A stretch of 64,000 bases of DNA from a virus: positions 1-64,000 of the IMG/VR virus record IMGVR_UViG_3300042564_003366. The stretch is one strand, 5' to 3'. The position numbers and the translations under genes are program-made. Under the pieces are notes generated by a model, which saw only the letters and a list, made by a program, of their open reading frames with translations, had not been told where the DNA came from and did no database searches. Of this stretch, positions 14,577 to 53,273 are shown piece by piece (within the stretch, counting starts at the first letter, position 1; every line of letters starts with the position of its first letter).

Positions 14577-14595
14577 TAAAAATATTTTATACTCA

Positions 14596-14620
14596 AAAAG
14601 TGATACTTTTATTTTTTGTT
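14596..14620 (+). terminator. Weak AT-rich terminator-like hairpin after the helicase gene
   Basis: AAAAGT (14596-14601) and ACTTTT (14605-14610) pair around a three-base loop and are followed by a T-rich run. The stem has only one G-C pair, so readthrough is likely. Confidence 0.35.
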
Positions 14621-14623
14621 TTT

Positions 14624-14635
14624 ATATTTATCTTA
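14624..14635 (+). promoter_or_regulatory. Possible promoter motif before nrdB
   Basis: ATATTTATCTTA resembles the window's TATTTATA motif but has C where the others have A, and it lies 20 rather than 15-16 bases before the ATG at 14652. It may be a weaker or a different class of promoter. Confidence 0.3.
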
Positions 14636-14651
14636 ACCTAATAATAGAAAA

Positions 14652-15632: not shown

Positions 15633-15644
15633 AAAACAAATATA

Positions 15645-32100: not shown

Positions 32101-32742
32101 GATGGTGCTGGTAGTTATAGTGGTGAGTTAGGTTTGTCAGATAAAAATCAATTCAGTTATTTATTGGATGTGGATAAAGGATTGTCTTCATTATATTATA
32201 GCAATCTAATTGTATCTGCATTAAATAATATTGGCTTTAACCTACAAAACTGCACACAAAGTAAAACGGTGGTAAATAATTTTAAAGGGTTAAATTTAGC
32301 ATTACCAAAAGAGGATATCATAAATAGTGATATTTTTAATGGTATTTGTCAAAAGAATTTAATAGAAATAATTTCAATACCTAATGAAAAGTTTGTTGAT
32401 ATATTAAGAACTAATATAATGAATGCGAAGGAAACTGCATTAGGTACCTGTGATGATAACAAAGTATTAACAACTTGGTTCTTAGAGTTTAAACTAGGGG
32501 CTAATACATTAATCAGAAGTAGTTTTTATAGTGGTCTTGGTAATACCGATGCTCCAACTGAAGCCATCTGGAATAGCGCATTAACCAATATCTTACCAGA
32601 ATTAATTAGTAATAATATTAACTACCAAGTTCCGACAAACAATCAAGTAACTTTAACGGATTTATTTTGTAAAACAATAAATACGGATAATAAAAAGATG
32701 ACACTTAATATTAGTGTTGATGTAACATTAATTTGTGAATAA
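29125..32742 (+). CDS. Baseplate wedge protein, gp7 / tail protein I-like
   Basis: This 1205-residue protein has, near residues 345-480, the pattern of the phage tail protein I/wedge family. It contains RFFVADSLKEFDTNDRRVES, a SQLLSDLSKTLGWG segment, and FKSKGTRRPIEFLMKLFGVP, which matches the family's KGTRxxIexxLrxfG core. Its length is close to T4 gp7 (1032 residues), the largest wedge protein. The C-terminal half is beta-rich with internal domains and contains DTVLRDCFLTYYNND. It is coupled by one-base overlaps to the genes on both sides, so it may connect the wedge to the fibre network that follows. Confidence 0.72.
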   Translation: MPIIYIKKSPGSGIGVFDNLVGYQLVQGGGLTYGNFQFTPSITEKTSPSFYTNLFDKPINLLDLGISDISNVRESITNELNVVPNYDISQVFNFSLYGSLSKRFSVSITKIINYFPASIDVNLYDDNLVTGYTATNISYELDSTTFDIDVLKIKNPFGVDFTKNAAINISSNEISVSKFRDLTTYYKDYVLDIQGEQYPITILNPTDSLTSGVLNITVSGNPFNILVYQVEQSTTPFIIRPSDFLYNLVLKSDFDEVEQYMLNTLTNPVYTMNLQVPEEKEDGSFVIVNYSLNWPLDGSWNLDISSESFDTYLNKLQEISEYFDGVKTNLISRFFVADSLKEFDTNDRRVESVLQIYGRSFDEVKKFIDSLGYMNSINYVPKNDIPSQLLSDLSKTLGWGDNFDFLYDKSLIDSIFGTSESGIYSAYSRTQTPLELNYAFYRNLVINSFYLFKSKGTRRPIEFLMKLFGVPDAMIQFNEHIYLADGPVDLNKFNNAIEKLDGGFYIDSDPIFTNQTYTIEGILFTGFTSNNDSVVVNYNINDYPVYTATGYPKKVSNPDFYFQKGAGWYELTPPHRSLEIPKRVVSGDTTTYSSEFEGFTYGQKYLDLFRRFPYMDDGFGLTKTIDNKKSWNVLDVLTRKSLDGDYNAYYFLNTERLLLNVKNIDLYINPSQAIVYDIWLKSVENNYPIPQEGLNLSNTGSPNDPSGDSKDSTKIIPSPKTKTFFEFLQTFSSNMINVRNRLYITDNKTGGYPVLQYIFWKYLEAQQISGATNKYTYNNLIEYVNNINPYWVKIVEQMIPATTIWNTGGRYENTPFHRQKYVYKRRLGCVVGEIPNKKVLNQYTEINIWYTSGVEMTETYNALIEMRDTVLRDCFLTYYNNDISLYEQNVKIREFSGKVSKNRTFYALNTSGSTQSVKSVINLVFQDEAQNAYTGVDFNINNTPTDRYVLDIADLRNGISGFTKSYYTGIIFRINTNNTTSSDFRKLLVAIKDGAGSYSGELGLSDKNQFSYLLDVDKGLSSLYYSNLIVSALNNIGFNLQNCTQSKTVVNNFKGLNLALPKEDIINSDIFNGICQKNLIEIISIPNEKFVDILRTNIMNAKETALGTCDDNKVLTTWFLEFKLGANTLIRSSFYSGLGNTDAPTEAIWNSALTNILPELISNNINYQVPTNNQVTLTDLFCKTINTDNKKMTLNISVDVTLICE

Positions 32743-34880
32743 TGGCAGCATTTACTTATAATTTAATTTTAACAGGGGATTGTAGTAATACTAATATTGG
32801 GGCATTTTCTATGACTTTATCTGGGGGAACGCCACCATACTCTGTTCAATTTTCAGCACCATTAGAATCATATGATGTTTCATTAACAACCTCACCTATA
32901 ATTGTAAATAGTCTAAGCGCTAGCACATATTCTGCAAGAATAAATGATTCTTCATTGCCTATTAATACCGAATATTATATTAATATTCCGATATCAAGTG
33001 GGTTCTGTGGGAATATTGTAAATGTTACAAATACAACTTGTGACGCATCTAACGGATCTGTTACTGCTACCACAACATCTTATAACACATCTGTTTATAC
33101 TTATTTATATAGACAAGACAATGTATTGATATCGAGCAAAGGTGCTACAAATAATAATATTATTTACGATAATTTAAGTGGTGGTACATACTATATTTAT
33201 ATTGAAGATATTGGGGGTTGTACTGCAAAAACTGAATCATTTATAATTAAAGAATCTATTGATTTTGATTTTGGTTACTTTGCCGTTAAGAGTTCACCTT
33301 GTTTTTCTGGTGAAACGGGTAAGATATATATAACAGGAGAAACGGGAACGCCACCATATAGTTACTATTGGAGTGTTCCACAAACCGGGAATACGGTAAG
33401 CGGTCTAACCTCTGGTTTATATTCCGTTGAGGTTGTTGATGGTAATAATTGCTCAAAATCAAAAACTATCGAAATTCTTGATGCTAGTGAAATGGGTATT
33501 GTTTCAGTAGTTAATACCCCACCGAGTTGTTTTAATGCGAATGGGGGTATTAGTGTTACCATATCTGGTGGTACTGCGCCATTTTATTATTTATTAGATA
33601 GTGGTTTTGCTGATATTTCATACGAAAATACATTTGTCGCAACTGGATTAACATCTGGGGGGTACACATTAAAAATTACTGATGCTGCCTTATGTGAGGT
33701 AGAAAGTTTAATAACGTTGACATCTGTCAATGGTATGTCATCGGTTGATATTATAGGTATTAATTCATCTTGTTCTAATTCTGGGGGCAGCATTACGATA
33801 AATACTAATGGTGGCGTTGGCCCATTTACATTTGGGTTAATAACACCAAGTGGCAACACAATTACAAATACATCTTCATCTAGTAGTTTCACATTTTCAA
33901 GTTTAAGTGGAGGGACATATACTGCTTATGTTTCTGATTCAACAAGTTGCAATTATAGTGAAGAAATAACTATTATAACAGAAGATAAGTTTACTTTAAG
34001 TTATACGACTACCAATACAACTTGTGGGGATTCAAATGGATCAGTATCAATGCTTATAACGTCAGGCGGTACACCACCATATAATTTTTATTTAGGAAAC
34101 AATTTTGCAGTAATAGGTACCATTTTAACCGCACATACATTTAATAATGTTTCAGTAGGTCAATACTCATTAAGAGTGGTGGATAGTTTGGGTTGTGAAC
34201 AAGTAAAACAAGTTTCTATTAGCCAGAGTAGTGGTATAGAATTTAATTTATATCCAATATCTTGTGAAAGTGGTAATGATGGGTCTATTAACGCTTTTAT
34301 ATCAAAAGGTAAACCTCCATTTACATTTAACTGGAGTAATAATATCCCTAACAACCCACAATCCATTAGTGTTTATAATTTAAGTGGGGGAACATATAGT
34401 TTAAACCTAGTTGATTCAGATGGTTGTAGTTTAACAAAACAAACAAATGTTTCATGTTTTAAAGCATATACTAGCACTCAGACTTATACAATTGATACTG
34501 AACAATTTGTTGTACAACCTATGAGTAGTAATTCATTACTTGATATTTTAAATGATGGATTTAATGACTTAACTTTGGGGAATACATCTTGCTACTTAAA
34601 TACTGCCATATATGAATTAATAATTGATTTGAATCCTATGATGTATAGTGCTAGTACGATATTCTTTACTGGTGATACAAGGACAAAAGTCCCCTCAGAT
34701 TCTGAATATGCTGATGTATTAAAATCAATTATTAAAGATGTGCCAGGTGTTGAAAGTGTTGAATATGACTTGTTCACAAATAAAGTTAAAATTATAGCTG
34801 AACCTAATAATCAACAAATATTATCGCAGGTTTTAACAATAAGATTAAAAATAACATATGATATTATTTGCACATCATGA
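32742..34880 (+). CDS. Virion adhesin-like protein with about seven SprB-type repeats
   Basis: This 712-residue protein is made mostly of tandem repeats of about 75-85 residues. Each has a Cys near its start, then DxSNGSV-like turns, GGTPPYSxxW-like strands, and an (L)SGGTYxxxVxDxxGC ending. This is the pattern of SprB repeats, found in the gliding adhesin SprB and other flavobacterial surface proteins. About seven copies cover residues 1-575. The C-terminal 135 residues form a different, DUF-like alpha/beta domain (DVPGVESVEYDLFTNKVKI). Phage proteins using this fold are probably parts of the fibre network. It overlaps the wedge gene by one base and the next gene by four. Confidence 0.72.
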   Translation: MAAFTYNLILTGDCSNTNIGAFSMTLSGGTPPYSVQFSAPLESYDVSLTTSPIIVNSLSASTYSARINDSSLPINTEYYINIPISSGFCGNIVNVTNTTCDASNGSVTATTTSYNTSVYTYLYRQDNVLISSKGATNNNIIYDNLSGGTYYIYIEDIGGCTAKTESFIIKESIDFDFGYFAVKSSPCFSGETGKIYITGETGTPPYSYYWSVPQTGNTVSGLTSGLYSVEVVDGNNCSKSKTIEILDASEMGIVSVVNTPPSCFNANGGISVTISGGTAPFYYLLDSGFADISYENTFVATGLTSGGYTLKITDAALCEVESLITLTSVNGMSSVDIIGINSSCSNSGGSITINTNGGVGPFTFGLITPSGNTITNTSSSSSFTFSSLSGGTYTAYVSDSTSCNYSEEITIITEDKFTLSYTTTNTTCGDSNGSVSMLITSGGTPPYNFYLGNNFAVIGTILTAHTFNNVSVGQYSLRVVDSLGCEQVKQVSISQSSGIEFNLYPISCESGNDGSINAFISKGKPPFTFNWSNNIPNNPQSISVYNLSGGTYSLNLVDSDGCSLTKQTNVSCFKAYTSTQTYTIDTEQFVVQPMSSNSLLDILNDGFNDLTLGNTSCYLNTAIYELIIDLNPMMYSASTIFFTGDTRTKVPSDSEYADVLKSIIKDVPGVESVEYDLFTNKVKIIAEPNNQQILSQVLTIRLKITYDIICTS

Positions 34881-37115: not shown

Positions 37116-40100
37116 ATGCCAACTAGAGTTAATTTTGGATCGCAAATTAAATTAAGTCCAATTGAGGTAGCTTGTAAATTTGCAACAACAACAAATGTAT
37201 CTTTTTCAGGTATATCAACCATAGATGGATTTAGTTTAACAACAAATGACAGGGTATTAGTTTGGCAACAAATATTACCAGAAGAAAATGGTATATATAT
37301 TGTATCTGGTGATACAAATTTGGTTAGAGCAAATGGAGCAAAAGTAGCAACTGATTTTAAAATAGGCCAACAAGTTTTTGTATATTCAGGATCCACAAAT
37401 GGCGAAAAACTATTCTATTTAAAGACAAATGTAACAACCATTGGTGTTAGCCCAATTGTATATGATGTTTTTGCTGGACTTAGTGGTTCATCTGGAACAA
37501 GTGGTAGTTCGGGTACGAGTGGTGGAACTGGTAGTTCAGGTGCAAGTGGTTCATCAGGAACAAGTGGAACGGATGGTACGAGTGGAAGTTCGGGAACAAG
37601 TGGAACTGATGGCACAAGCGGTTCATCAGGAACAAGTGGAACGGATGGTACGAGTGGAAGTTCAGGAACAAGCGGAACGGATGGCACAAGTGGTAGTTCA
37701 GGAACAAGCGGAACAGATGGTACGAGTGGTTCATCTGGCACAAGCGGAACGGATGGTACAAGTGGTAGTTCAGGAACAAGTGGGAGTAGTGGTACATCTG
37801 GTAGTTCAGGAACAAGTGGAACAGATGGTACAAGTGGTTCATCAGGAACAAGTGGTAGTAGTGGAGTAACTGGTACAAGCGGAAGCAATGGAACATCAGC
37901 ATTTATTGTGTCATCAGCATCAACACCATCACCAGTTAATTTGGATTCATCTTGTTATTGGTATGATACAACCAATAAATTGCCAATGGTTTCATATTAT
38001 GGATTTGGTAATATAAATTCTTGGTCAGCAGGAGGAGCAATGATAACAGCAAGACTATTATTAGAAGGAGCAGGAACTCAAAATGCAGGACTTGCTGTGG
38101 GAGGTTATACAAATGCAATGCCTGGAGTATCCTGCACCGAAGAATACGATGGCACATCTTGGTCAGCAGGAGGAGCATTGATAACAGCAAGATATACATT
38201 AGCAGTAGCAGGAACACAAAATGTAGGTCTTGCATCAGGAGGTTTTACAAATGTGAATGTCTCGTGTACCGAAGAATATAACGGCACATCTTGGTCAGCG
38301 GGAGGTGCGTTTATAACAGCAAGAAGTAGTTTAGCAGGAGCAGGGACACAGAATGAAGGACTTTTAGTAGGAGGTGTTTTAGTCTCAAACCCAGGAGTTT
38401 CCTGTACCGAAGAATACAATGGCACATCTTGGTCAGCAGGAGGAGCAGTAATAACAGCAAGATACGGTTTAGCAGGTTCAGGAACACAAAATGAAGCATT
38501 TGTAGCAGGAGGTTTTACAAATGCAGCAGTATCTTGTACCGAAGAATACAACGGCACATCTTGGTTAGCGGGTGGTGCAATGATAACGGCAAGAAGACAA
38601 TTAGCAGGTGCGGGAACACAGAATGAAGGGATTATGATAGGAGGAGGTACGATAGGTACATTTTTTTCTTGCACTGAAGAATATAATGGTACATCATGGT
38701 CAGCAGGTGGTGCATTGATAGTAGCGAGGAGAGGATTGGCAGGGGCAGGAACACAAAGTGCAGGACTTGCAGCGGGAGGTACGTCAAATACAAATCTAAC
38801 TTGTACCGAAGAATATTCTAATTTTGGTTTAATTAATAGTACAGGTGCAGGAACATCTGGAACAAGTGGAGTTAGCGGTAGTTCTGGTGTTAGCGGTTCA
38901 TCAGGAACAAGTGGTGCGGCAGGTTCGATGGGACCCCCAGGACCAAATGGTGCGCCTGGTGCAAGTGGTTCGTCAGGAACAAGTGGTAGTAGTGGAAGTA
39001 GGGGTACAAGCGGAGTAAGTGGTTCGTCAGGAACAAGTGGTGCGGCAGGTTCAATGGGACCCCCAGGACCAAATGGACCCCCAGGGCCTCCAGGACCTGC
39101 TGGAGCAAGTGCTGGAATTACATCATACACAAATCCAGCAGATAATAGAGTAATAACATCAGTTAATTCAACAACTATAAATGCAGAATCAAATTTAACT
39201 TTTGATGGTACAACATTAATTGTTACTGGAAATCAACAAGTTACTGGTGGTAGTTATGATTCGGGTATTACAAGAATAAATAATCCAGGTGGAGCATTTT
39301 ATACAACTACAACTGCAACAATCACTGGTGCATTTAGGATAGCTTTACCCACCGCTTCTGGTGGTCAGTTTCCAATGTTACAATTTACAATAAATATTTA
39401 TCGTTATTCTACAGGTTTAAGTACAAGAATTAGAGTGGGGGGACATATTTCAAGTAGTCTGTGGTATAATGTTTTTGCATATGCTATTACTGATTCTGCT
39501 CCTAATTATAATGTAAGATTTGGAAATAATGGTGGATCAGATATGTATGTTTGGGTTGGCGAAACAAGTACAGTATGGGAATACCCACAAATTTTTATAA
39601 CAGATTTCCAAAATGGATATTCTGCTATATCTTCTTTTTGGGCAACTGGATGGGCAATAACTCCTCAAACAAGTTTCAATACCGTTCAAATAACTAGAGC
39701 ATCTGCACTATCGTTAAATACAAATAATTATACTTCTTATTCTCCTACTTTAACAGGTACAGGTGCATCTGGTACTTGGGGTATTAGTATAACGGGTAAT
39801 GCAGATACTGTAGATGGATTTAGCGCATCTCAATCGACGATAGCAAACGGAATCGTAGTAAGAGATGCAAATGGATACATCTTTGGTAATTATATAAATT
39901 TAACAGATGATGGTAATCCTGGTGGAGGAACTTCCATCTCATCGTTTATAACAAAACAGGGTGATAACTACTATCGTTCAGTATCTCCGACTAATGCTAT
40001 GGTTTCAATTAGAGGTGTTGCATCTGGTACTTCTTGGGCTATAGGTGTGACAGGTAACGCTGGTTCTGTCACTTACTTACTTAATAGAACTGATTCAGCA

Positions 40101-40511
40101 TTTTATCAAGTTTTATGGGGTGCTGGTTATACTAATACTATTGGAACTATCGCATATTCTTGTGCTGGTGTTACTATCCAATCTAGTACTGGTACTTTAA
40201 GTGCAACAGTATTAACAGAAACATCAACAATAAGAATAAAAGAAAATATTGAAGAAATTCAGAATCCTTTAGATATAGTTAAAAAACTAAGAGGTATTAA
40301 GTATAATAAAATAGGAAATGATAACAAAGAAATTGGTGTTATTGCTGAAGAAGTCAACGATATTTTAAGTGAAGTTGTTGTTAAAGACAACGAAGGACAA
40401 CCATCTTCTGTTTCTTATGGTAGATTAACTGCATTATTAATTGAGGCTATTAAGGAACAAGATAAACAAATTGAAATTTTAAGAAAAAGGATTGATGATT
40501 TAGAAAAATAA
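37116..40511 (+). CDS. Tail fibre: collagen-like stalk, kelch-like repeats, S74 chaperone
   Basis: This 1131-residue fibre contains, in order: an N-terminal virion-docking domain (1-115, with DRVLVWQQILPEENGIYIV, typical of phage fibres); a Gly-Ser-Ser/Gly-Thr-Ser triplet stalk (about 121-258); and six kelch-like repeats of about 44 residues (302-568, each with AGGAxITAR and SCTEEYNGTSW). A second stalk with true collagen triplets (about 585-667, including GPPGPNGPPGPPGPAG) comes next, then a beta-structured head (about 700-1020) and an S74-type intramolecular chaperone (about 1028-1131). The chaperone begins STIRIKENI, where self-cleavage is expected, and ends in a coiled coil. It is probably a trimeric receptor-binding fibre. 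Confidence 0.85.
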   Translation: MPTRVNFGSQIKLSPIEVACKFATTTNVSFSGISTIDGFSLTTNDRVLVWQQILPEENGIYIVSGDTNLVRANGAKVATDFKIGQQVFVYSGSTNGEKLFYLKTNVTTIGVSPIVYDVFAGLSGSSGTSGSSGTSGGTGSSGASGSSGTSGTDGTSGSSGTSGTDGTSGSSGTSGTDGTSGSSGTSGTDGTSGSSGTSGTDGTSGSSGTSGTDGTSGSSGTSGSSGTSGSSGTSGTDGTSGSSGTSGSSGVTGTSGSNGTSAFIVSSASTPSPVNLDSSCYWYDTTNKLPMVSYYGFGNINSWSAGGAMITARLLLEGAGTQNAGLAVGGYTNAMPGVSCTEEYDGTSWSAGGALITARYTLAVAGTQNVGLASGGFTNVNVSCTEEYNGTSWSAGGAFITARSSLAGAGTQNEGLLVGGVLVSNPGVSCTEEYNGTSWSAGGAVITARYGLAGSGTQNEAFVAGGFTNAAVSCTEEYNGTSWLAGGAMITARRQLAGAGTQNEGIMIGGGTIGTFFSCTEEYNGTSWSAGGALIVARRGLAGAGTQSAGLAAGGTSNTNLTCTEEYSNFGLINSTGAGTSGTSGVSGSSGVSGSSGTSGAAGSMGPPGPNGAPGASGSSGTSGSSGSRGTSGVSGSSGTSGAAGSMGPPGPNGPPGPPGPAGASAGITSYTNPADNRVITSVNSTTINAESNLTFDGTTLIVTGNQQVTGGSYDSGITRINNPGGAFYTTTTATITGAFRIALPTASGGQFPMLQFTINIYRYSTGLSTRIRVGGHISSSLWYNVFAYAITDSAPNYNVRFGNNGGSDMYVWVGETSTVWEYPQIFITDFQNGYSAISSFWATGWAITPQTSFNTVQITRASALSLNTNNYTSYSPTLTGTGASGTWGISITGNADTVDGFSASQSTIANGIVVRDANGYIFGNYINLTDDGNPGGGTSISSFITKQGDNYYRSVSPTNAMVSIRGVASGTSWAIGVTGNAGSVTYLLNRTDSAFYQVLWGAGYTNTIGTIAYSCAGVTIQSSTGTLSATVLTETSTIRIKENIEEIQNPLDIVKKLRGIKYNKIGNDNKEIGVIAEEVNDILSEVVVKDNEGQPSSVSYGRLTALLIEAIKEQDKQIEILRKRIDDLEK
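37478..37890 (+). repeat. Collagen-like Gly-x-x coding repeat
   Basis: About 45 triplets alternate GTS, GSS and GTD. At the DNA level, variants of a 36-base unit recur with synonymous changes (aacggatggtacgagtgg-type), so the repeat is selected at the protein level and is prone to length change. Confidence 0.85.
38022..38820 (+). repeat. Six kelch-like repeats in the fibre gene
   Basis: There are six units of about 130-140 bases, each encoding WSAGGAxITARxxLAGAGTQ and then GLAxGG...SCTEEYNGTS. The same unit makes up the three genes at 44154-47037. Confidence 0.85.
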
Positions 40512-40513
40512 AC

Positions 40514-40521
40514 TATTTTTA
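40514..40521 (+). promoter_or_regulatory. Variant late promoter motif before the 40538 gene
   Basis: TATTTTTA followed by AATAAAA; it ends 16 bases before the ATG at 40538. It has one mismatch to the core but the same spacing. AAAGGAA just before the ATG is one of the few purine-rich leaders here. Confidence 0.4.
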
Positions 40522-40537
40522 AATAAAATGAAAGGAA

Positions 40538-40780
40538 ATGAAAAAGTATTATCAAGTTGAAAACTATGGACACGGATTTATAACTCACCAAGAGAATGAA
40601 ACGGCACATATTGCAGGTTTCCCAGGGAATATCTGGGTAACTGAAAACGTATCTTGGGCGCAAAGGGTTAATGCGGTGGAGAAGACAAAGGAAGAGGCTC
40701 AAGCAATTGTTGATGCTGCTGTTGCATCTTCATATACACCACCTAATAGCACAACTCCACCACCAATAATTTTACCTTAA
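40538..40780 (+). CDS. Small protein of unknown function following the fibre gene
   Basis: This 80-residue protein has the opening MKKYYQVENYGHGFITHQEN. It contains a small alpha/beta part and a Thr/Pro-rich tail ending in PPPIILP. No cysteine or catalytic motif is seen. It starts the operon that carries the dioxygenase and sulfotransferase genes. An ATG ten bases upstream is out of frame and quickly stopped, so 40538 is the start. Possibly a fibre assembly factor; function unknown. Confidence 0.62.
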   Translation: MKKYYQVENYGHGFITHQENETAHIAGFPGNIWVTENVSWAQRVNAVEKTKEEAQAIVDAAVASSYTPPNSTTPPPIILP

Positions 40781-40788
40781 AAAAAAAT

Positions 40789-41472
40789 ATGAAAAAAGAA
40801 TTACAAATTACAGAAGACTTAAAAGAGATTGTAAGTGTTTTGAATGAGGATGATGCACAAACCATTTTATTATTAAAAGACGAATTGGTTGATAATTGGC
40901 ATAAAAAGCAGATTTTTAGAACAGAAACAGAAATGAGAGTTTCTGTTTTAAATGATGCAAAACATCCTACAAATGCTTCCAAATACTGGCAATCAGTAAG
41001 AGAAATGTCAGCACATTTTGATGCTTTGATGAATTTATCTTTTGATTTGAGGAAAAATACAGTAGACAACTTACGTCTTGATAAAAAGATGCAAGACTTA
41101 CTTGAAAATGAAGATGAGAATAAGTTTGATATTATGGATGCACAAATAGACCTCGATAGAAATTTATATGATAGGTCATGTATGTTGCAAGTTGCAAAGG
41201 ATCGAGTTAGGGAATTGAGTCTATGGAGTACTATAAAGAGAGAATTAGATGATAGTTCTTTTGATGTAGAAAATGTAAATACGCATCAAGCGGAATCATT
41301 ACATAGATACTTTGAAAATAGGGTTAAATCTTTAAACGATTCATCTGCACCAGGCGAGATTATTAATGCTATGGGTCCTTATCTATCATTCAATAGATTG
41401 AAGACTGATGATGGAAAATTGAAAAACTTCTTGGGTGAAGTAACCGAGGATACAAAAAAGAAATTAAATTAA
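40789..41472 (+). CDS. Helical protein of unknown function, similar to T4-like cyanophage proteins
   Basis: This 227-residue, highly charged, mostly helical protein contains RTETEMRVSVLNDAKHPTNA and the phrase DVENVNTHQAESL. I recall very similar proteins of unknown function in marine T4-like cyanophages, where they also sit among structural and dioxygenase genes; this is from memory and unverified. No metal-binding or ATP-binding motif was seen. It lies 8 bases after the small gene and 2 bases before the dioxygenase gene, so it is cotranslated with the modification enzymes and may serve them as an adaptor. Confidence 0.68.
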   Translation: MKKELQITEDLKEIVSVLNEDDAQTILLLKDELVDNWHKKQIFRTETEMRVSVLNDAKHPTNASKYWQSVREMSAHFDALMNLSFDLRKNTVDNLRLDKKMQDLLENEDENKFDIMDAQIDLDRNLYDRSCMLQVAKDRVRELSLWSTIKRELDDSSFDVENVNTHQAESLHRYFENRVKSLNDSSAPGEIINAMGPYLSFNRLKTDDGKLKNFLGEVTEDTKKKLN

Positions 41473-41474
41473 TT

Positions 41475-42059
41475 ATGACCAATTTTATCTACACCAAAAA
41501 AAATGCAATATCTGCTAATACGTGTTATAACTTAATAAAAACATTTGAAGCGTCAGATTTAAAGCAGGCTGGTGTTTTATATGGACCGAATGGTGTATCA
41601 TCTAATAGTGATAAAAAATCAACAGATATAACTTTTGACCCATCCTTCCTAAAAAAAGAAGGATGGGCAATTTTATTAGAAGAAGTAATTGGAACAATTC
41701 AAAATGGTGTTTCAGATTATTTAAATAGGCATTCTACCGCAATGAGTAAAATGGATCCTATTGACTTATATACGTATTTCAATATGCAGAAGTATGAGCC
41801 AAATGAAGGGTTTTATGGCTGGCATTGTGAAAGAGCAGGCGTTAAGCATTCAGATAGGTTGCTAGTTTGGATGATATATTTAAATACTTTAACAGATAGA
41901 GGTGAAACAGAGTTTTTTTATCAGCAACATTTCGAAGAACCAGAGAGAGGAAAATTAGTTATTTGGCCTTCAGATTGGACACACTTACATAGAGGTGTTC
42001 CATCACCAACAGAAACAAAGTATATTTTAACAGGTTGGTTTACACACAATAAAGTATAA
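41475..42059 (+). CDS. Fe(II)/2-oxoglutarate dioxygenase (HxE type)
   Basis: This 194-residue enzyme has proximal metal ligands H117-x-E119 (FYGWHCERAG), a distal His at 170 or 172 in DWTHLHRGVPS, and K182 near the cofactor site (TKYILTGWF). Glu replaces the usual Asp in the HxD motif, as happens in some family members. The fold and order resemble phage P4Hc proteins. It is two bases downstream of the helical protein and four bases upstream of a second dioxygenase gene. Together they look like a cascade acting on a fibre protein, but the substrate is not known. Confidence 0.82.
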   Translation: MTNFIYTKKNAISANTCYNLIKTFEASDLKQAGVLYGPNGVSSNSDKKSTDITFDPSFLKKEGWAILLEEVIGTIQNGVSDYLNRHSTAMSKMDPIDLYTYFNMQKYEPNEGFYGWHCERAGVKHSDRLLVWMIYLNTLTDRGETEFFYQQHFEEPERGKLVIWPSDWTHLHRGVPSPTETKYILTGWFTHNKV

Positions 42060-42063
42060 AGTT

Positions 42064-42660
42064 ATGGAATTTTCAATACATGAAGAAACTTGGTTTTCAA
42101 CACCTATTTGGGAATCAGAGGTTAAAAACATAAACAATGATGAAATTAAGGATTATTGTTTATGGTTAAGGGAAAATACAAGAGGTGCGACCATTTCAAA
42201 TAGAGGTGGTTGGCATAGTAGTGAAATTGCATTACCATTACCAAGTGATTTAACAAAATTATTTAGCAATCTTGAAATATTTGTTAATGAAAACTGTTTT
42301 AAACATTTGGGCATTGACAACTTGAAGTTTGGGAATTTTTGGGTTAATATTAATACACCAGGGTCTTATAACTTATTACACGATCACCAAAATAGCATAT
42401 TATCTGGCGTGTATTATGTATCAGTTCCATTTGATAATATGGGTGATTTGGTTTTACATAGAGGCGATAATGCGGAGTATTTTTTAAAATCAGATGTGGA
42501 AAGAATTAGCACAAAAACAAACTCATTTACATCAGTTAAAAAACCTATTGAATCTTTCTTTTATATCTTTCCATCTTGGGTTAAGCATCATGTTGAATCA
42601 AATGAATCACAAGGCGAGAGAATATCAATAGCGTTTAATTTTGTACCTAATAATAAATAA
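42064..42660 (+). CDS. Fe(II)/2-oxoglutarate dioxygenase of the TIGR02466 type
   Basis: This 198-residue protein has the pattern of the TIGR02466 family of putative dioxygenases: FWVNINTPGSYNLLHDHQNS, then LSGVYYVSVP, and later FFYIFPSWVKHHVESN followed by ERISIAFNF. The metal ligands are probably among H106/H108 and H175/H176, with R186 for 2-oxoglutarate. Such enzymes are common in T4-like marine phages, and their substrates are unknown. It stands between two other dioxygenase genes with spacers of 3-4 bases. Confidence 0.84.
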   Translation: MEFSIHEETWFSTPIWESEVKNINNDEIKDYCLWLRENTRGATISNRGGWHSSEIALPLPSDLTKLFSNLEIFVNENCFKHLGIDNLKFGNFWVNINTPGSYNLLHDHQNSILSGVYYVSVPFDNMGDLVLHRGDNAEYFLKSDVERISTKTNSFTSVKKPIESFFYIFPSWVKHHVESNESQGERISIAFNFVPNNK

Positions 42661-42663
42661 AAT

Positions 42664-43302
42664 ATGAACGCACAAGTCTATTCTTTATTTCCAACACCAT
42701 TATATGTTGCAAATTATGACAAAGATATTAAAGAAGTAATTGATTATTTTGATAAGTGTGAAATGTTGGACACAAAGAGTGGTTATGGGATGATATCAAA
42801 AAATAGTTATATATTAGATAATCCGATATGTGATGATTTGAATAAATTTCTAATGTCTTGTTTTGAAGATTTTGCAACAAACATTATGAGATATAGGTTT
42901 AAAGAATTGGCATTTGCTCAATCTTGGCTAACATACAAGAACCCAAACCAGTTTCATAAAGCCCATACACATCCAAATACATTATTGGCTGGAGTGTTCT
43001 ATTATGATGCACACGAGGATGATGCTGCAATATGCTTTTCAAAAGAAGTGAAGTCATTTAATAGATCATACTTTGAACCATCATTAATTGATGATTATCA
43101 AAATCATATTTTTTCACAAGAAGAGATATATTATATGCCAAAGAAAAATGATTTTATTATATTCCCATCATGGTTGACACATGGTGTACCACCAAATAAA
43201 ACAAATAGAGTGAGGAAGGCATTAGGTGTCAATGCTTTAACAAAAGGCACATTAGGTGATAAAGAAACCATATCAGAAATTATATTTGGAAGATACGCAT
43301 GA
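42664..43302 (+). CDS. Fe(II)/2-oxoglutarate dioxygenase of the TIGR02466 type
   Basis: This 212-residue enzyme starts NAQVYSLFPTPLYVANYD (typical of this family: xLFPTPLxxxxx). It has FHKAHTHPNTLLAGVFYYDA with candidate ligands H101/H103, and IIFPSWLTHGVPPN with the distal His173 and an Arg nearby. It is a distant paralogue of the preceding gene, arranged in tandem. Its stop overlaps the sulfotransferase ATG by four bases. It is presumably part of the same modification pathway. Confidence 0.84.
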   Translation: MNAQVYSLFPTPLYVANYDKDIKEVIDYFDKCEMLDTKSGYGMISKNSYILDNPICDDLNKFLMSCFEDFATNIMRYRFKELAFAQSWLTYKNPNQFHKAHTHPNTLLAGVFYYDAHEDDAAICFSKEVKSFNRSYFEPSLIDDYQNHIFSQEEIYYMPKKNDFIIFPSWLTHGVPPNKTNRVRKALGVNALTKGTLGDKETISEIIFGRYA

Positions 43303-44117
43303 AACAAAAGATATTTTTTAATTCAACATTACCGAGAAGTGGTAGTACATTACTTCAAAATTTGCTGGGACAAAATCCTGAATTCTTTGTAACTCCGACA
43401 TCAGGTCTAATTGATTTGATGTTAGGAGCAAGAATAGGTTATAATCAAAACTATGAATCAAAAGCAGGTGATACAGAAATGTGGAGAGAAGGCTTTTATA
43501 AGTTTTGCTCATATGGAATTGATGGATATATAAAATCACAAACATCAAAACCATATTATTTGGATAAGAATAGAGTTTGGGCATTTTACTACAATTTATT
43601 AACGCATATTGTAGAAAAACCAAAAGTATTGTACATGGTTAGAGATTTACCATCCATCTTCGCTTCAATGGAGAAGAAGTTTAGAATGAATCCTGACAAA
43701 GATGACGGAACCATGGATAATGTAAAGATGAAAGGAACTACAACACATAAGAGAGTTGAATTATGGGCTCAATCACATCCTGTAGGTTACTCATTAGAAA
43801 AATTATATCAGACTTTGCTGGATGGTACAGCAAGTAATTTTTTATTTATAAGATACGAAGATTTATGTATTAATCCAGAAAATGTTATGAAAAGCATCTA
43901 TCAATATTTGGAGTTGGATGAATTTAAACATAATTTCCAACATATAAATCAAGTTACAACTGAAAATGATGCAATACATGGAATATATGGAGACCACATC
44001 ATAAGGAATTCTCTTAAAATGTTGCCAAATGATTCGAAAGAAATATTAGGAACACATACCGTAGATTTGATTAAGGAAAATTATAAATGGTATTATGATT
44101 TCTTTGGGTATAAATAA
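43299..44117 (+). CDS. PAPS-dependent sulfotransferase-like protein
   Basis: This 272-residue P-loop protein carries the two PAPS-binding motifs of sulfotransferases: LPRSGSTLL (11-19, the 5'-phosphosulfate loop) and VRDLPSIFASM (114-124, the 3'-phosphate loop). FLFIRYEDLCINPENVMKSI is the usual downstream helix. It would transfer sulfate from PAPS to a hydroxyl or amino group on protein, sugar or lipid. The four-base overlap with a dioxygenase gene suggests that it modifies a group made by hydroxylation or glycosylation. No membrane segment is present, so it acts in the cytoplasm. Confidence 0.87.
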   Translation: MKQKIFFNSTLPRSGSTLLQNLLGQNPEFFVTPTSGLIDLMLGARIGYNQNYESKAGDTEMWREGFYKFCSYGIDGYIKSQTSKPYYLDKNRVWAFYYNLLTHIVEKPKVLYMVRDLPSIFASMEKKFRMNPDKDDGTMDNVKMKGTTTHKRVELWAQSHPVGYSLEKLYQTLLDGTASNFLFIRYEDLCINPENVMKSIYQYLELDEFKHNFQHINQVTTENDAIHGIYGDHIIRNSLKMLPNDSKEILGTHTVDLIKENYKWYYDFFGYK

Positions 44118-44153: not shown

Positions 44154-45092
44154 ATGGCAAAATTACAGAGTAGTGAAATAGTAGGAGTAGCAAATAGACC
44201 TGCAACAATATGTTCAAATACGATGTGCATTTGGTTTGACACAACTAATTTAAAAACGGTTATTTCCTATTGTGGTTATGGAGCAGGTACTTGGTCAGCA
44301 GGAGGTGCATTAATAATTGCAAGAGCATATTTTGGTGGAACAGGAACTCAGAATGAATCTTTAGTAGCAGGAGGTTCAGGTGTAACTGGAGATGCATCAT
44401 GTACAGAAGAATATAATGGAACATCATGGGCAGCAGGAGGTGGTCTTATAACAACAAGATATCATCATGCTTTATTAGGTACACAAAACGAGGGTCTTGC
44501 GGTAGGAGGATATGCTTATCCAACACCTGCGGTAAGATGTACAGAAGAGTATAATGGCACATCATGGTCAGCAGGGGGTGCTTTGATATCAGGAAATTGG
44601 CTGATTATGGGAGCAGGCACACAGAACGTTGGGCTTGTTGCTGGAAACGCATGTACTGAAGAATATAACGGTGCTTCTTGGTCGGTAGGAGGTGCTATGA
44701 TTGTAAATAGGAATTATTTAACAGGAGGTGGTACACAAAACGAGGCTTTTGCATCAGGTGGGGGTGGGCCAGTAAATTGTACTGAAGAATACAATGGTAT
44801 TTCTTGGTCAGCAGGTGGGGCAATGATAACTGCAAGGTATAATTTAGAAGGTAGTGGTGCTCAGAATGCGGGTATTGTAGCGGGAGGTATATCAAGTACA
44901 TGGCTATCTTGTACAGAAGAGTACAACGGTAACTCTTGGTCAGCAGCTTCAGCAATTTCAACAGCTAAAAGAGGTTTAGCGGTTTCAGGTACACAACAAT
45001 CAGCTTTAGCAACAGGAGGTGTATCTAGTCAGTATTGGGGGGATACACAAGAATATAACAAATCATTCACAATAATAGATAGCATTCAATAG
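44154..45092 (+). CDS. Stand-alone kelch-like repeat protein, first of three paralogues
   Basis: This 312-residue protein has an N-terminal 45-residue strand/hook segment (MAKLQSSEIVGVANRPATIC, then CIWFDTTN) followed by six kelch-like repeats of about 44 residues. These have SAGGAxIxxR and TEEYNGTSW at regular intervals, with one shortened repeat near the middle. The repeats match those inside the 37116 fibre, which also carries a CYWYDTTN variant of the hook. It probably folds as a six-bladed propeller that binds a host surface sugar or protein. It is the first of three adjacent paralogues. Confidence 0.72.
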   Translation: MAKLQSSEIVGVANRPATICSNTMCIWFDTTNLKTVISYCGYGAGTWSAGGALIIARAYFGGTGTQNESLVAGGSGVTGDASCTEEYNGTSWAAGGGLITTRYHHALLGTQNEGLAVGGYAYPTPAVRCTEEYNGTSWSAGGALISGNWLIMGAGTQNVGLVAGNACTEEYNGASWSVGGAMIVNRNYLTGGGTQNEAFASGGGGPVNCTEEYNGISWSAGGAMITARYNLEGSGAQNAGIVAGGISSTWLSCTEEYNGNSWSAASAISTAKRGLAVSGTQQSALATGGVSSQYWGDTQEYNKSFTIIDSIQ

Positions 45093-47010
45093 ATATAATA
45101 CAATATGGCAAAATTACAAAGTACAGAGATAGTAGGTGTTGCAAATAGACCTGCAACAATATGTTCCAATAGTGTTTGTATGTGGTTTGATACTACTAAT
45201 ACTAAAATAGTTTTTTCATATTGTGGGTATAGTGGTGCAGGTGTCTGGTCAACGGGAGGTGCATTAATAATAGGAAGACAATCTTTAACAGGCGCAGGTA
45301 CTCAAAATGTGGGATTAGCTATGGGTGGTTTTTCAAATGCAGGGGTTGTTTCTTGTACAGAAGAATACAATGGCACATCTTGGTCAGCAGGAGGTGCTTT
45401 GATAACAGGAAGATATGATGGGGGAGGATTAGGAACTCAAAATGAGGGATTAGCCGTAGGAGGTACTACAAATACAGGTGCTGTTTCATGTACAGAAGAA
45501 TATAATGGCACATCTTGGTCAGCAGGTGGCGCACTTATAATAGGAAGATTTTATTTAGCAGGGGCAGGAACTCAAAATGAGGGATTAGTTATGGGAGGGT
45601 TTTCATCTTTGCGATGTACTGAAGAATATAATGGTACAAGTTGGGCAGTAGGCGGTATATTAATAACGGGAAGACATCATATAGCAGGTGCAGGAACTCA
45701 AAATGTGGGGTTAGCTATGGGGGGGGTAACATTATCATGTACTGAAGAATATAATGGCACATCTTGGTCAGTGGGTGGTGCAATGATAATAGCAAGAAGA
45801 GGTTTAGCAGGGGCAGGAACTCAAAATGAGGGATTAGCTATGGGAGGGCAAACCCCTTCATTTGTATCTTGTACAGAAGAATATAATGGTACAAGTTGGT
45901 CAGCAGCTGGTGTGTTAGCAACAGCAAGATATAACTTAGGAGGGGCAGGTACACAGTGTGCAGGACTTGCTATTGGAGGAAATGCTACGGGTAATAGAGT
46001 TGGAAACACAGAAGAATACACTAAACCATTAGCAATAATAGACTGTATTAAATAGAATATACAATATGGCAAAATTACAGAGTAGTGAAGTTGTTGGAGT
46101 AGCAAATAGACCTGCAACAATATGTGTAAATACGGTATGTTTATGGTATGATACTACTAATTTAAAACCAATGGCATCTTATTGTAGTAGGAGTGGAGCA
46201 GGTGTCTGGTCAGCAGGAGGTGCGTTGATAACAGGAAGAAGAGAATCTGGTGGTGGAGGTGCTCAAAACGAGGCGTTTATAGTTGGTGGTTATATTAATA
46301 CACATCTTACGTGTACAGAAGAATATAATGGAACATCATGGGCAGCAGGGGGTGGTCTTATAACATCAAGATACACTTTAGCTGGTGCAGGTTCACAGAA
46401 TGTTGGGTTAGCTATTGGTGGATATACAACTGGGTATGTTGGTTGCACAGAAGAATATAACGGCACATCGTGGACAGCAGGTGGAGCATTAATTACTGTA
46501 ATTGGTTATCAAGCAGCAGCAGGGACACAAAACGAAGCGGTTATAGGTGGTGGATATAACCAAACTCCAAGTGGTGGACCTAGAGTTTGTACCCAAGAGT
46601 ATAACGGTACAAGTTGGTCAACAAGTAATAATATGATAACCGCAAGATATGTTCTTTCTGGAATGGGTACACAGAACTCTGGACTTGCTGCTGCTGGTTA
46701 TTCAACCGCTTGTACTAGTTGTACTGAGGAGTATAATGGAACATCATGGTCAGTAGGGGGTGCATTAATAAATTCAAGGTGGGCTTCTGCGGGTGCTGGA
46801 ACACAGAACGAGGGGTTAATTATGGCTGGTTGGATAGGTTCGCCAATATCATGTACAGAAGAATATAATGGGAATAGTTGGACTACCGCAAACCCGACTA
46901 TTGTTGCAAGAGCGACTTATTGGGGGGCTGGTAGTCAAGGTAGTGCTTTAATAGGCGGTGGTTATACGCCAACGCATGTTTCTTGCACCGAAGAATACCT
47001 AAAATCATCA
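44290..47010 (+). repeat. Array of about 18 kelch-like repeat units across three genes
   Basis: Six units occur in each of three consecutive genes, and six more lie in the fibre gene at 38022-38820. Units such as GAATATAATGGCACATCTTGG recur almost unchanged, which gives many targets for homologous recombination. Confidence 0.82.
45105..46055 (+). CDS. Stand-alone kelch-like repeat protein, second paralogue
   Basis: This 316-residue protein has the same hook (MAKLQSTEIVGVANRPATIC, CMWFDTTN) and six regular repeats. It has the highest internal regularity of the three (GAGTQNxGLAMGG recurs), which suggests recent repeat conversion. It starts 12 bases after the previous stop and has no promoter of its own. 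The surface loops between the conserved blades differ from its neighbours, as expected if they set binding specificity. It is very likely a virion or fibre-attached propeller; no enzyme motif is seen. Confidence 0.72.
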   Translation: MAKLQSTEIVGVANRPATICSNSVCMWFDTTNTKIVFSYCGYSGAGVWSTGGALIIGRQSLTGAGTQNVGLAMGGFSNAGVVSCTEEYNGTSWSAGGALITGRYDGGGLGTQNEGLAVGGTTNTGAVSCTEEYNGTSWSAGGALIIGRFYLAGAGTQNEGLVMGGFSSLRCTEEYNGTSWAVGGILITGRHHIAGAGTQNVGLAMGGVTLSCTEEYNGTSWSVGGAMIIARRGLAGAGTQNEGLAMGGQTPSFVSCTEEYNGTSWSAAGVLATARYNLGGAGTQCAGLAIGGNATGNRVGNTEEYTKPLAIIDCIK

Positions 47011-47037
47011 TACACAATAGTAGATTGTATCTTATAA
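46066..47037 (+). CDS. Stand-alone kelch-like repeat protein, third paralogue
   Basis: This 323-residue protein opens with MAKLQSSEVVGVANRPATIC and CLWYDTTN, followed by six repeats. Repeats 3-4 are more diverged, with a longer loop (NQTPSGGPRVC). It starts 10 bases after the previous gene and ends 28 bases before the GT9-like glycosyltransferase. As with its neighbours, the conserved Trp, Gly-Gly and Thr-Glu-Glu-Tyr positions support a propeller, and the loops are variable. Confidence 0.72.
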   Translation: MAKLQSSEVVGVANRPATICVNTVCLWYDTTNLKPMASYCSRSGAGVWSAGGALITGRRESGGGGAQNEAFIVGGYINTHLTCTEEYNGTSWAAGGGLITSRYTLAGAGSQNVGLAIGGYTTGYVGCTEEYNGTSWTAGGALITVIGYQAAAGTQNEAVIGGGYNQTPSGGPRVCTQEYNGTSWSTSNNMITARYVLSGMGTQNSGLAAAGYSTACTSCTEEYNGTSWSVGGALINSRWASAGAGTQNEGLIMAGWIGSPISCTEEYNGNSWTTANPTIVARATYWGAGSQGSALIGGGYTPTHVSCTEEYLKSSYTIVDCIL

Positions 47038-50734: not shown

Positions 50735-52972
50735 ATGTTAATAGATAATTTGTATAATGGTGGTATTTTAAGTAATGAAATTAAATATGATTTAATGCAT
50801 TGTGGGTTTCTTGGTGGGGCTAAAATTAATATTGATTTTGGTGAAACAAAGGAAATTAAAAATATTGCTAAATTAGATAAAGTTTTAAGTTACAATATTG
50901 AATATAAGAAATATGAATTAAATTTAGTAGTTGATACGCACATAAAGAAAGTAGATAAAGTTTATGTAATAAATAAAAATATTATATGTGGGGAAACTCA
51001 AAAATTTTATGTAGATAATTTTGGTTGGAAGAAAGCGAAGGATTTAGTCATATCAGATAAGATTTTTAATGTAACAGAATATATTACTATTGAAGATTTT
51101 GAGATAAGGTATGAGGATTATATTTTATATGATTTAACAATTGAGAAGAATCATAACTTTTTTGTTTTGGGCAATTTGGTCCATAATCAAATTAATATAT
51201 CAGCAACCCCAACAAGTTCAGTTACCCCCACCCCAACGCCAACTATAACACCAACCATAACAATTACTCCAACAATATCAGTAACAACAACTATTACTCC
51301 AACTATAACACCAACCAGAACGGTAACTAGGACAATAACTCCAACACTAAGTATTACGGAGACTGTATTTCCGACAGCAACACTTACTAGAACTCCAACC
51401 ATATCAATAACCCCAACAATAACACCAACAATATCAATAACAACAACTATAACACCAACTAGAACGATAACGCCAACCATATCAATAACGCCAACCATAT
51501 CAATAACACCAACTCAAACCATAACGCCAACTCAAACCATAACACCAACGAGGAGTATTACTCCAACTATCACAAATACAATAAGTGTAACCACAACCCC
51601 AACAATAACTCCAACCATATCAATAACCCCAACAATAACACCAACAATACCAATAAAAACATTATTCCAAGATTGTAAAAATAATTCAATAAAGTATAGA
51701 TTTAGTTCTATTGGTTTGACATTTAATGTAGGGGAAATTTATGAGGTAAATGGTAATGGATTGCACTTTTTTGGTCAAGTTATTGCTTATGCCGAGCAAG
51801 GTACATTATACAGTTCAAATGGTATTGTATTCACAGGGCCACATACGGTATGTCCAAGTTTTTGTTTAACAAATGAATATACTTTATTAGATGGTTTTGC
51901 TGGTAATTATAAATCTGGTGGAACATATAATTCTAAAATATACTACACTGGTGACACTAGTGGCTTTGTTTATTATAATAATAGTGAATGGTGTTTAAGT
52001 GATAGTTTAGGGGGTGATTGTATAATAAATGGTAAATCACCTTGTTTTTCTATTACCCCAGACTTTAATTCATTAATCATATATTCAGGCTATTGTGTTA
52101 CACCAACGCCAACGCCATCAGTAATAAGTAGTATTAATTTTGATGCTTCTTTTACTTGTGAAATTGATATATCGCCAACCCCATCAATAACAAGAACGAT
52201 AACACCAACTGCATCATTAAGTGTAACGCCTAGCACTAGTATAGTTTATAACGAGAACATAGATTTATTATTATCTGGTTATACACCAAATTTAACCGTA
52301 ACTCCAACCGTGACACCTTCTATTACCCCAACTGAACCAATACAAATATTGGGGGCAGTTACATTTAATATGTTGGAAAATAGGTTTGCCAGAAATGGTG
52401 GTGTTAAGGTATTAAAAGATTGTAATTCTGGTGTATATTATTATGTTTCGCAAGATTTAATATATAATGGGCAACCAATTTTAACTGGTAAAATATTGAG
52501 GTTAAATGCCCAAGGGAATACAATTTGTGTTAATTACATTAGGGATAATGACAATTCTAGCACGAATTTATTTTTTGATGAAATAATTTCGGTTGGGGAT
52601 AGTTGCTCAACATGTGTAATATCACCAACACCAACAATAAGCATAACGTCATCAGTTAGTGTAACGCCATCACAATCAATTATGCCAACACCAAGTTTAT
52701 CAAGTAATTTGGTTTTTGTATTTGAAAGTTGTGGAGTTATATCACCAAGTATAAAGAAAAGCCAATTGGTTCAAACACAGCCATATGCGGAAATGTTAAA
52801 TATTGGTGATGTAGTTAAAGACTTTAATTTAAATTGCTGGGTATTTTTGGGGTATTTTAATAATAGTTATATACCAAGTAGTGATTTTATCTCATTAACA
52901 TATAATGGTAATTATTTTAATAATTATGAATCAAATATATATATAAATTGTCAAAATTGTACAAATGGATAA
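50735..52972 (+). CDS. Thr/Pro stalk fibre protein with an N-terminal Hint (intein-like) domain
   Basis: Residues 23-151 of this 745-residue protein form a Hint domain. Cys23 opens it (HCGFLGGAKINID), followed by KEIKNIAKLDKVLSYN, then GWKKAKDLVISDKIF and YDLTIEKNHNFFVLG, closing with V149-H150-N151. The block B His is apparently Gln (GETQKFYV), and the residue after Asn is Gln, not Cys/Ser/Thr. Full splicing is therefore doubtful, and cleavage or a dead fold is more likely. A Thr/Pro-Ile-Thr stalk follows (about 157-307), then Cys-containing beta domains separated by more Thr/Pro linkers. It is the first of three Thr/Pro stalk genes in a row. Confidence 0.78.
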   Translation: MLIDNLYNGGILSNEIKYDLMHCGFLGGAKINIDFGETKEIKNIAKLDKVLSYNIEYKKYELNLVVDTHIKKVDKVYVINKNIICGETQKFYVDNFGWKKAKDLVISDKIFNVTEYITIEDFEIRYEDYILYDLTIEKNHNFFVLGNLVHNQINISATPTSSVTPTPTPTITPTITITPTISVTTTITPTITPTRTVTRTITPTLSITETVFPTATLTRTPTISITPTITPTISITTTITPTRTITPTISITPTISITPTQTITPTQTITPTRSITPTITNTISVTTTPTITPTISITPTITPTIPIKTLFQDCKNNSIKYRFSSIGLTFNVGEIYEVNGNGLHFFGQVIAYAEQGTLYSSNGIVFTGPHTVCPSFCLTNEYTLLDGFAGNYKSGGTYNSKIYYTGDTSGFVYYNNSEWCLSDSLGGDCIINGKSPCFSITPDFNSLIIYSGYCVTPTPTPSVISSINFDASFTCEIDISPTPSITRTITPTASLSVTPSTSIVYNENIDLLLSGYTPNLTVTPTVTPSITPTEPIQILGAVTFNMLENRFARNGGVKVLKDCNSGVYYYVSQDLIYNGQPILTGKILRLNAQGNTICVNYIRDNDNSSTNLFFDEIISVGDSCSTCVISPTPTISITSSVSVTPSQSIMPTPSLSSNLVFVFESCGVISPSIKKSQLVQTQPYAEMLNIGDVVKDFNLNCWVFLGYFNNSYIPSSDFISLTYNGNYFNNYESNIYINCQNCTNG
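51205..51655 (+). repeat. Thr-Pro-Thr-Ile repeat stalk in the Hint-fibre gene
   Basis: About 150 residues of TPTITP/TPTISI/TPTRT units are encoded by ACNCCAAC(A/C)ATA(A/T)C-type repeats with many synonymous differences. Shorter relatives lie at about 52100-52130, 52173-52240, 52290-52335 and 52620-52705. Confidence 0.85.
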
Positions 52973-53273
52973 TCTTAAAGTTTTTATCAATGGTTTAACT
53001 GGGGCTAGTCCTTTTCATATATATATATGTCAACCAAATATAAATGAATGTTTTTATGTGAATACTATAACTGGTACTACATATAACTTTGATATACCAA
53101 AACCTTTTGATAACAACACATCATATTTCTTGAAAGTTATTGATAATAATGAAAATATAATTATTGGATTTATGGGGATAACCCCAACCCCAACTATAAG
53201 TATAACACCAAGCATTACACCATCAATAAGTTTAACACCAACACCCACAGCAAGTGTTGTCGGTGGGGCTTAA
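52965..53273 (+). CDS. Small beta-domain protein with a Thr/Pro tail
   Basis: This 102-residue protein has an ATG overlapping the preceding stop by eight bases. Residues 1-72 are the third member of the small-domain family seen at 34877 and 35137 (NGLTGASPFHIYI core). Residues 73-98 are a Thr/Pro stalk (GITPTPTISITPSITPSISL). It looks like one domain plus one linker broken off from a larger fibre, or a stand-alone extension unit for the fibres on each side. Confidence 0.65.
   Translation: MDNLKVFINGLTGASPFHIYICQPNINECFYVNTITGTTYNFDIPKPFDNNTSYFLKVIDNNENIIIGFMGITPTPTISITPSITPSISLTPTPTASVVGGA

Follow-up and report, generated by a model that had tools for sequence, protein, structure and literature searches.

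The window analysed here comprises 64,000 nucleotides (positions 1 to 64,000) of the IMG/VR virus record IMGVR_UViG_3300042564_003366, which is 72,399 bases long. Ten proteins from the window were compared with PHROGs: the proteins in the gp25 and gp6 positions matched baseplate wedge families, and one match each was obtained to a tail fibre, a UvsX-like recombinase and a DnaB-like helicase, on the basis of which we read the virus as a T4-like myovirus. The gp6-type protein reached 98–99% length coverage in the 'phages' collection only at 28–29% identity, with matches in four Flavobacterium phage records, a Microcystis phage and an uncultured phage. Elsewhere, the window encodes a 712-residue protein with SprB repeats (32742–34880), which are known from the gliding adhesins of Bacteroidota, and three successive paralogous proteins built of repeated EEYNGTSWSAGG-like units (44154–47037), a kind of protein also encoded at the related locus L065. 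Further along the record, at about 61306–69606 (L063:307–8607), lies the gene for a 2,766-residue stalk protein; near its N terminus this protein has a reprolysin-like metallopeptidase stretch and also gives a weak trypsin-like match. A search of viral_contigs with a 2,642-residue neighbour protein gave no lead.

The gene of interest is a fibre-type open reading frame of 745 residues, separated by a short gap from a preceding glycosyltransferase gene on the opposite strand (Table 1). Its product begins MLIDNLYNGGILSNEIKYDLMHCGF; residues 139–152 read NHNFFVLGNLVHNQ and are followed by a Thr/Pro stalk that ends at about residue 305, and additional short Thr/Pro stretches lie within the body. 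Cys23 is encoded at 50801–50803 and Asn151 at 51185–51187, directly followed by Gln152, coordinates that confirm the 22 residues ahead of Cys23 and the 129-residue span from Cys23 to Asn151 given in the initial annotation. An alternative start at Met21 would leave just two residues ahead of Cys23.

Table 1 Features of the fibre-type gene, with the basis of each assignment
Feature	Position in window	Strand	Basis
Whole gene, 745 residues: Hint head, Thr/Pro stalk and conserved C-terminal body	50735–52972	+	Body aligned with relatives
Leader, residues 1–23; Cys23 is the −1 residue	50735–50803	+	Alignment, AlphaFold model, structural rows
Hint domain, residues 24–151	50804–51187	+	Profiles, phmmer, alignment, fold model, structure matches
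Gly24 at catalytic position 1	50804–50806	+	Alignment, structural rows, six-position census
Block B motif GETQ; Gly86 replaces Thr and Gln89 replaces His	50990–51001	+	Alignment, census
Block F, kept, Asp133 to His140 (DLTIEKNH)	51131–51154	+	His140, census; Asp133, read from sequence
Block G, His150-Asn151; predicted cut after Asn151	51182–51187	+	TIGR01443, alignment, census
Gln152, +1 residue, not a nucleophile	51188–51190	+	Sequence
Short link and Thr/Pro stalk (TPTITPT repeats), residues 153–305	51191–51649	+	Sequence
Conserved C-terminal body, residues 306–745, common to relatives without a Hint	51650–52969	+	Body alignment, relative scan

The Hint (intein/hedgehog-like) domain at the head of this protein is real, beyond chance. 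PT-HINT (PF07591) is the top Pfam match of the protein and scores near its cut-off of 27.7 bits, giving 28.6 bits (E = 1.9e-6) with residues 1–156 and 24.5 bits, under the cut-off, with all 745 residues. The NCBIfam profile TIGR01443 (intein_Cterm) scored 21.4 bits against a cut-off of 15.6, and PF14890 matched residues 116–151 alone, under its cut-off. Using phmmer, six solved bacterial intein-like (BIL) or intein sequences were matched at E values of 3e-4 to 5e-3 and a seventh at 1.9. An AlphaFold2 model built from a 24-row alignment had a mean pLDDT of 87.9 and a pTM of 0.80, and leans on that alignment of Hints, as the sequence alone gave a pLDDT of 27.6. Within the model, every ten-residue block of residues 21–150 averages a pLDDT above 90, and leader residues 1–18 fall below 50. 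Its top solved match was the Tetrahymena BIL2 domain (Foldseek E = 8e-11; Z = 21.4); the Clostridium thermocellum BIL aligned at Z = 21.0 with an rmsd of 1.4, and the matches ran in order from BIL domains through mini-inteins to hedgehog at Z = 17. Together with the family profile match, the modelled fold places the domain in the Hint superfamily. The initial annotation had proposed that a tail-stalk protein carries a Hint-like domain ahead of its Thr/Pro stalk, to be checked by Pfam profiles and structure prediction; the PF07591 score on residues 1–156, the alignment-based model and the PHROGs matches of the window's proteins, which indicate a tail-gene region, all agree with it.

Searches of the whole 72-kb record with PF07591 and with residues 1–156 found a Hint at this single place, and PF13403 matched nowhere in the record. 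Residues 1–156 recovered only L001 (30% identity) from viral_contigs and only L257 (31%) from genome_contigs, collections whose searches may omit near copies of the window's own record. The L257 match lies at 4001–4456 of a Clostridia MAG contig and covers residues 23–152 of the window's protein; a Ruminococcus phage protein also bears a similar Hint-like domain. A DNA pattern joining the end of the Hint to Thr/Pro repeats, written with one codon for the first His, returned no match in a search from which the window's own record was possibly omitted.

The 24-sequence alignment assigns Gly24 to catalytic position 1 and Cys23 to position −1. The same register appears in 19 of the 50 structural rows listed, which start with residue 24 opposite residue 1 (or hedgehog 258); one row (7cfv) starts with residue 23 opposite residue 1, and the remaining 30 start elsewhere and give a register by counting only. 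A four-sequence alignment set Cys23 at position 1 by opening a gap. Cys at −1 is also found beside a normal Cys1 in L015, L018 and L025. With Cys23 at −1, N-terminal thioester chemistry would not be expected. The initial annotation had framed the domain by Cys23 and a terminal Val-His-Asn; the Asn151 end of that frame holds, and the catalytic place given to Cys23 passes to Gly24.

The N-terminal catalytic set is lost, with Gly24 for Cys1 and Gly86 and Gln89 for the Thr and His of block B, and the C-terminal set (Asp133, His140, His150 and Asn151) is kept. The Gln at the block B His position and the Gln after Asn151 had been recognized before, as had the atypical site that makes normal splicing unlikely, a judgement that the altered position 1, block B and +1 residues uphold; loss of the block B Thr is an additional change. 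We placed the domain in a census drawn from 156 Hint matches in the loci fetched, in which 47 distinct Hints gave a match at each of the six catalytic positions. In 46 of them both Cys1 and the block B His are present; the window's Hint alone has neither, and retains His140, His150 and Asn151. These counts come from a model whose alignment contains the window's own Hint, and they omit partial matches (the Cys1-less first units described below among them) and include near-identical copies. A +1 residue other than Cys, Ser or Thr is common in the census (40 of 47, the window's included), and 14 of those 40 domains are followed by a stop codon at a distance of one or two residues.

Comparison with known classes gave a mixed result. 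The window's domain shares the C-terminal His-Asn of class 1 inteins and departs from them at position 1 (Gly24, where they have Cys or Ser), +1 (Gln152, where they have Cys, Ser or Thr) and block B (Gly86 and Gln89, where they have Thr and His). Position 1 would suit a class 2 intein, but Gln152 at +1 does not. For class 3, the block F position holds Asp133, in a YDL motif, rather than Cys; we take Asp133 to be the place of the block F Cys of the WCT motif. The His-Asn end followed by Gln, with no nucleophile at +1, is that of a type A BIL, and Gly24 stands where a type A BIL has its thioester-forming residue. Downstream of the domain are a stalk and a body common to phages, the body without any Pfam match, rather than the effector of a PT-HINT toxin, and the hedgehog row (1at0) starts with residue 258, presumably the hedgehog catalytic Cys, opposite Gly24. 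From the residues at these positions, splicing, ligation and N-terminal cleavage by the window's Hint are unlikely, which leaves cleavage after Asn151 as the one plausible reaction. Joining of the fibre to another protein, which the initial annotation had also raised, is unsupported because the nucleophiles at position 1 and +1 are both missing.

Relatives of the fibre were collected through its neighbour and through its body. The search with the glycosyltransferase gave the best 80 of 173 loci, 13 of which matched the C-terminal body, seven of them identical. A six-row alignment of the body recovered 67 loci, several on contigs reached before, which encode 38 distinct proteins. A Hint in the fibre frame was found in none of these 38 distinct relatives (67 loci; i-E below 1), and no second fibre with a Hint in the head position turned up among them. 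Their N-terminal parts vary (MACTCFYYDV, MSSCGTILNSG, MANCYTI, MGIISVNFYSG and others) and in most cases lead into Thr/Pro repeats; in L065 and the copies identical to it, both a head of this sort and a stalk are missing ahead of the body, and the heads of L195, L215 and L228, whose rows start without Met, are uncertain. Judged from these sequences, the window's Hint occupies a freely varying head position of the fibre. Its absence from 38 distinct relatives indicates that it is not a general requirement for the fibre. Searches with the 191-residue start of the body against viral_contigs and with the body against the 'phages' collection gave no lead. Gene order differs in L065, where the fibre gene is preceded by a small gene that resembles, by eye, positions 52965–53273 of the window.

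Scanned in six frames, four of the 67 loci contained Hints (L181, L204, L206 and L207). The L181 copy is degenerate and on the opposite strand. At the other three, which represent two distinct relatives, the gene directly upstream on the same strand encodes another stalk protein that ends in a complete Hint followed by a single Lys (THNK); from the last codon of this gene to the first Met of the fibre relative there are 113 bases in L206 and 354 in L204. Loss of such a gap would produce the order seen in the window, and an in-frame fusion with a Hint-bearing module probably placed the Hint on the fibre. The upstream Hint of L204 is 22% identical to the window's (row L242), which suggests a possible route rather than proof of the event. 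A very near relative, G004 (the contig of L047), carries three inteins, one in the DnaB-like helicase gene and one in each of the two ribonucleotide reductase genes (38755–43448, corresponding to 13209–17270 of the window, where these genes are intein-free). We set aside an origin from these three inteins, as residues 1–156 gave a best tblastn E value of only 0.058 against those loci.

Other Hints without Cys1 occur in related phages. Tandem arrays of Hints are located close to the glycosyltransferase gene in other relatives. A Hint lay within the 6-kb flanks of this gene at 5 of 80 loci, and in 11 of the 50 glycosyltransferase records searched whole (E up to 1e-4); a later search of 35 records found 12 with a Hint at E up to 1e-5, nine already known and three new. 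In tandem arrays of Hints, the first unit lacks Cys1 and its block B is mostly altered. First units were counted with a model without domain ends, which gave 27 rows; 17 above 150 bits were retained (L152, L242, L019, L181, L024, L120, L013, L020, L034 and L016 were the weaker rows dropped) and, L092 being a cut copy of L146, 16 distinct first units remained. All 16 keep the terminal Asn and 14 end in His-Asn, with YN or SN in L165 and L255. This count is free of the circularity for HN that affects a set of 14 distinct rows chosen by HN ahead of the next unit; the selection requiring HN had given 16 rows, one of them an enzyme intein. The 16 are not independent, 14 of them falling into eight groups at 60% identity. 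An invariant Gly adjoins position 1 in the 14 distinct first units aligned, and the block F His is lost in the array-first rows aligned. On an ungapped reading, L150 and L159 have a Cys two residues ahead of position 1. Four of the 16 (L002, L004, L005 and L240) have their Asn directly followed by the Cys1 with which the next unit begins, and for that reason these four could go beyond cleavage. Two apparent homologues of the array protein carry a degenerate Hint followed by other sequence (THN-Tyr in L181 and EHN-Gly in L120).

Going by these alignments, the combination of a missing Cys1 and a retained final Asn recurs among the Hints of related phages. The window's Hint scored 70 bits with a model of active Hints and 10 with a model of first units, and it probably reached this state separately; on the same scores we put its descent from array-first Hints low. 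The proteins of L001, L002, L005, L015, L030, L087, L147 and L237 start with MKGT[LV]FSADF or a similar sequence and carry two to four tandem Hints, including the Cys1-less first, with few residues between them; the arrays mostly end in HNK and a stop. By eye these proteins are ATP-grasp-like, and the N-terminal part of L001 had no Pfam match. Single Hints were seen in or near the end of proteins that look like tail or stalk proteins (L019:3149–5557, L034:3205–4287 and L020:3353–5710); that of L020, whose protein is rich in Cys and Thr, has Cys as its next residue and could be a true splicing intein.

The reading that we favour, holding it at evenly balanced confidence, is of a BIL-like Hint that has lost its N-terminal chemistry and acts as a C-terminal-cutting variant in the exchangeable head of the fibre. 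The Hint fold would position His150 and His140 near Asn151, Asn151 would cyclise to a succinimide, and the chain would break between Asn151 and Gln152, separating a 151-residue head from a stalk that starts with Gln152; the domain would be a slow, single-turnover C-terminal cutter. Whether it cuts after Asn151 at a meaningful rate is, on our analysis, close to a coin toss. Such cleavage is chemically plausible because the C1A mutant of the Ssp DnaB mini-intein still releases the partner downstream of it, with lower efficiency at 25 °C, and because the block B His acts in the opening step of the reaction; the accessible text of PMC4339811 describes this mutant and the slowing of C-terminal cleavage by loss of Cys1, and that of PMC6333167 assigns the block B His to the N–S acyl shift and C-terminal cleavage to the block G Asn. 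In the available part of PMC4031507, C-terminal cleavage is an off-pathway reaction that arises when Asn cyclisation comes first. The array-first Hints and the upstream Hints of the related phages serve as analogies only, given scores of 10 versus 70 bits and 22% identity, respectively. The cut could release or mature the fibre; a needed maturation step is doubtful, because the relatives lack the domain.

Somewhat short of an even prospect is an inert Hint, either a leftover of fusion or a folded head that replaces other small heads, whose remaining catalytic residues are relics of its past, on a protein that remains full length in the virion. Loss of the N-terminal catalytic set fits this reading, as do the variable heads with no Hint in any of the 38 distinct relatives, and the open frame by itself shows no use, since a stop anywhere in the Hint would also abolish the fibre. 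It accounts less well for the joint retention of Asp133, His140, His150 and Asn151 and for the two profiles, TIGR01443 and the sub-cut-off PF14890, that match the C-terminal stretch alone; C-terminal cleavage has also been reported both off pathway and in the C1A mutant (accessible portions of PMC4031507 and PMC4339811). It is improbable that Cys23 acts, one residue early, as an N-terminal nucleophile that supports cleavage at both ends or type A BIL splicing. Cys23 adjoins position 1, the 7cfv row and the gapped four-sequence alignment pair it with position 1, and a few inteins without the block B His still splice, according to the accessible text of PMC6333167; but the larger alignment and the 19 structural rows favour Gly24, L015, L018 and L025 show a −1 Cys as a mere neighbour of Cys1, and the Thr of block B is lost along with its His.

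We give less credence again to a polymorphic-toxin PT-HINT that releases a downstream effector. Although PT-HINT is the top Pfam match and similar domains occur in the Ruminococcus phage protein and the Clostridia MAG contig (31%), the score is near the cut-off, intein and BIL structures match too, and what follows the domain is a Thr/Pro stalk and a body common to 38 distinct phage proteins. The faintest prospect of all is that the fusion arose by misassembly or by local rearrangement of a single contig: no second copy was found, residues 1–156 matching only L001 and L257 in searches that may omit near copies of the window's own record, and the local gene order is unlike that of L065, but Hint, stalk and body share one uninterrupted frame of 751 codons.

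The favoured reading, a C-terminal-cutting head, could extend to a broader view that we consider rather unlikely, in which Hints of a distinct kind, without Cys1 but able to cyclise Asn, serve these phages as slow, one-sided release linkers, the window's fibre and the array-first units being cases. Fibres or polyproteins would then shed a head, an enzyme or preceding domains at a defined moment. If the window's head cuts itself, it would be a natural one-sided self-cleaving domain like those engineered by changing Cys1, would provide timed N-terminal maturation of a fibre with no protease needed, and would give a function to Cys1-less Hints, which are easily dismissed as dead. Even an inert domain would be a clear example of a Hint module in an exchangeable fibre head.

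The literature searched, which covered few subscription journals and included the accessible parts of PMC3556154, PMC5259590, PMC7664689 and PMC8616854, yielded no account of a phage fibre with a Hint. Hints in predicted proteins of uncultured Caudovirales in BFVD, compared as database rows only, have the same fold, and the names of some of these proteins refer to fibronectin type III, PASTA or collagen-repeat domains. The upstream Hints of L204, L206 and L207 come from related phages at the same locus and likewise adjoin a Thr/Pro stalk, but they form the C-terminal end of another gene, retain Cys1 and the block B Thr and His, and are distant in sequence (22% identity). The array-first Hints (L001, L005, L156, L159 and others) resemble the window's in lacking Cys1, in a mostly altered block B and in keeping the terminal Asn (16 of 16), and differ in being distant by profile score, in having further Hints downstream, in loss of the block F His and in the kind of protein that carries them. 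The C1A Ssp DnaB mini-intein of the dual-intein system is engineered, whereas the window's change is natural, extends to block B and is accompanied by Gln at +1; the engineered domain presumably retains its block B His. The two are alike in lacking a nucleophile at position 1 while keeping Asn and the penultimate His, and in the one-sided C-terminal cleavage to be expected, as far as the accessible text of PMC4339811 describes it. Nearest in fold among solved BILs are that of C. thermocellum (2lwy) and the Tetrahymena BUBL1 BIL2 (6tmm/6y75), at Z = 21.4–20.9. Type A BILs are defined, in the available part of PMC4031507, by a His-Asn end without a +1 nucleophile, and their proposed mechanism requires Cys or Ser at position 1 for the thioester. 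The window's Hint, which has no homing endonuclease insert, shares that His-Asn end and the missing +1 nucleophile, and differs in having lost the position-1 Cys or Ser and both the Thr and the His of block B.
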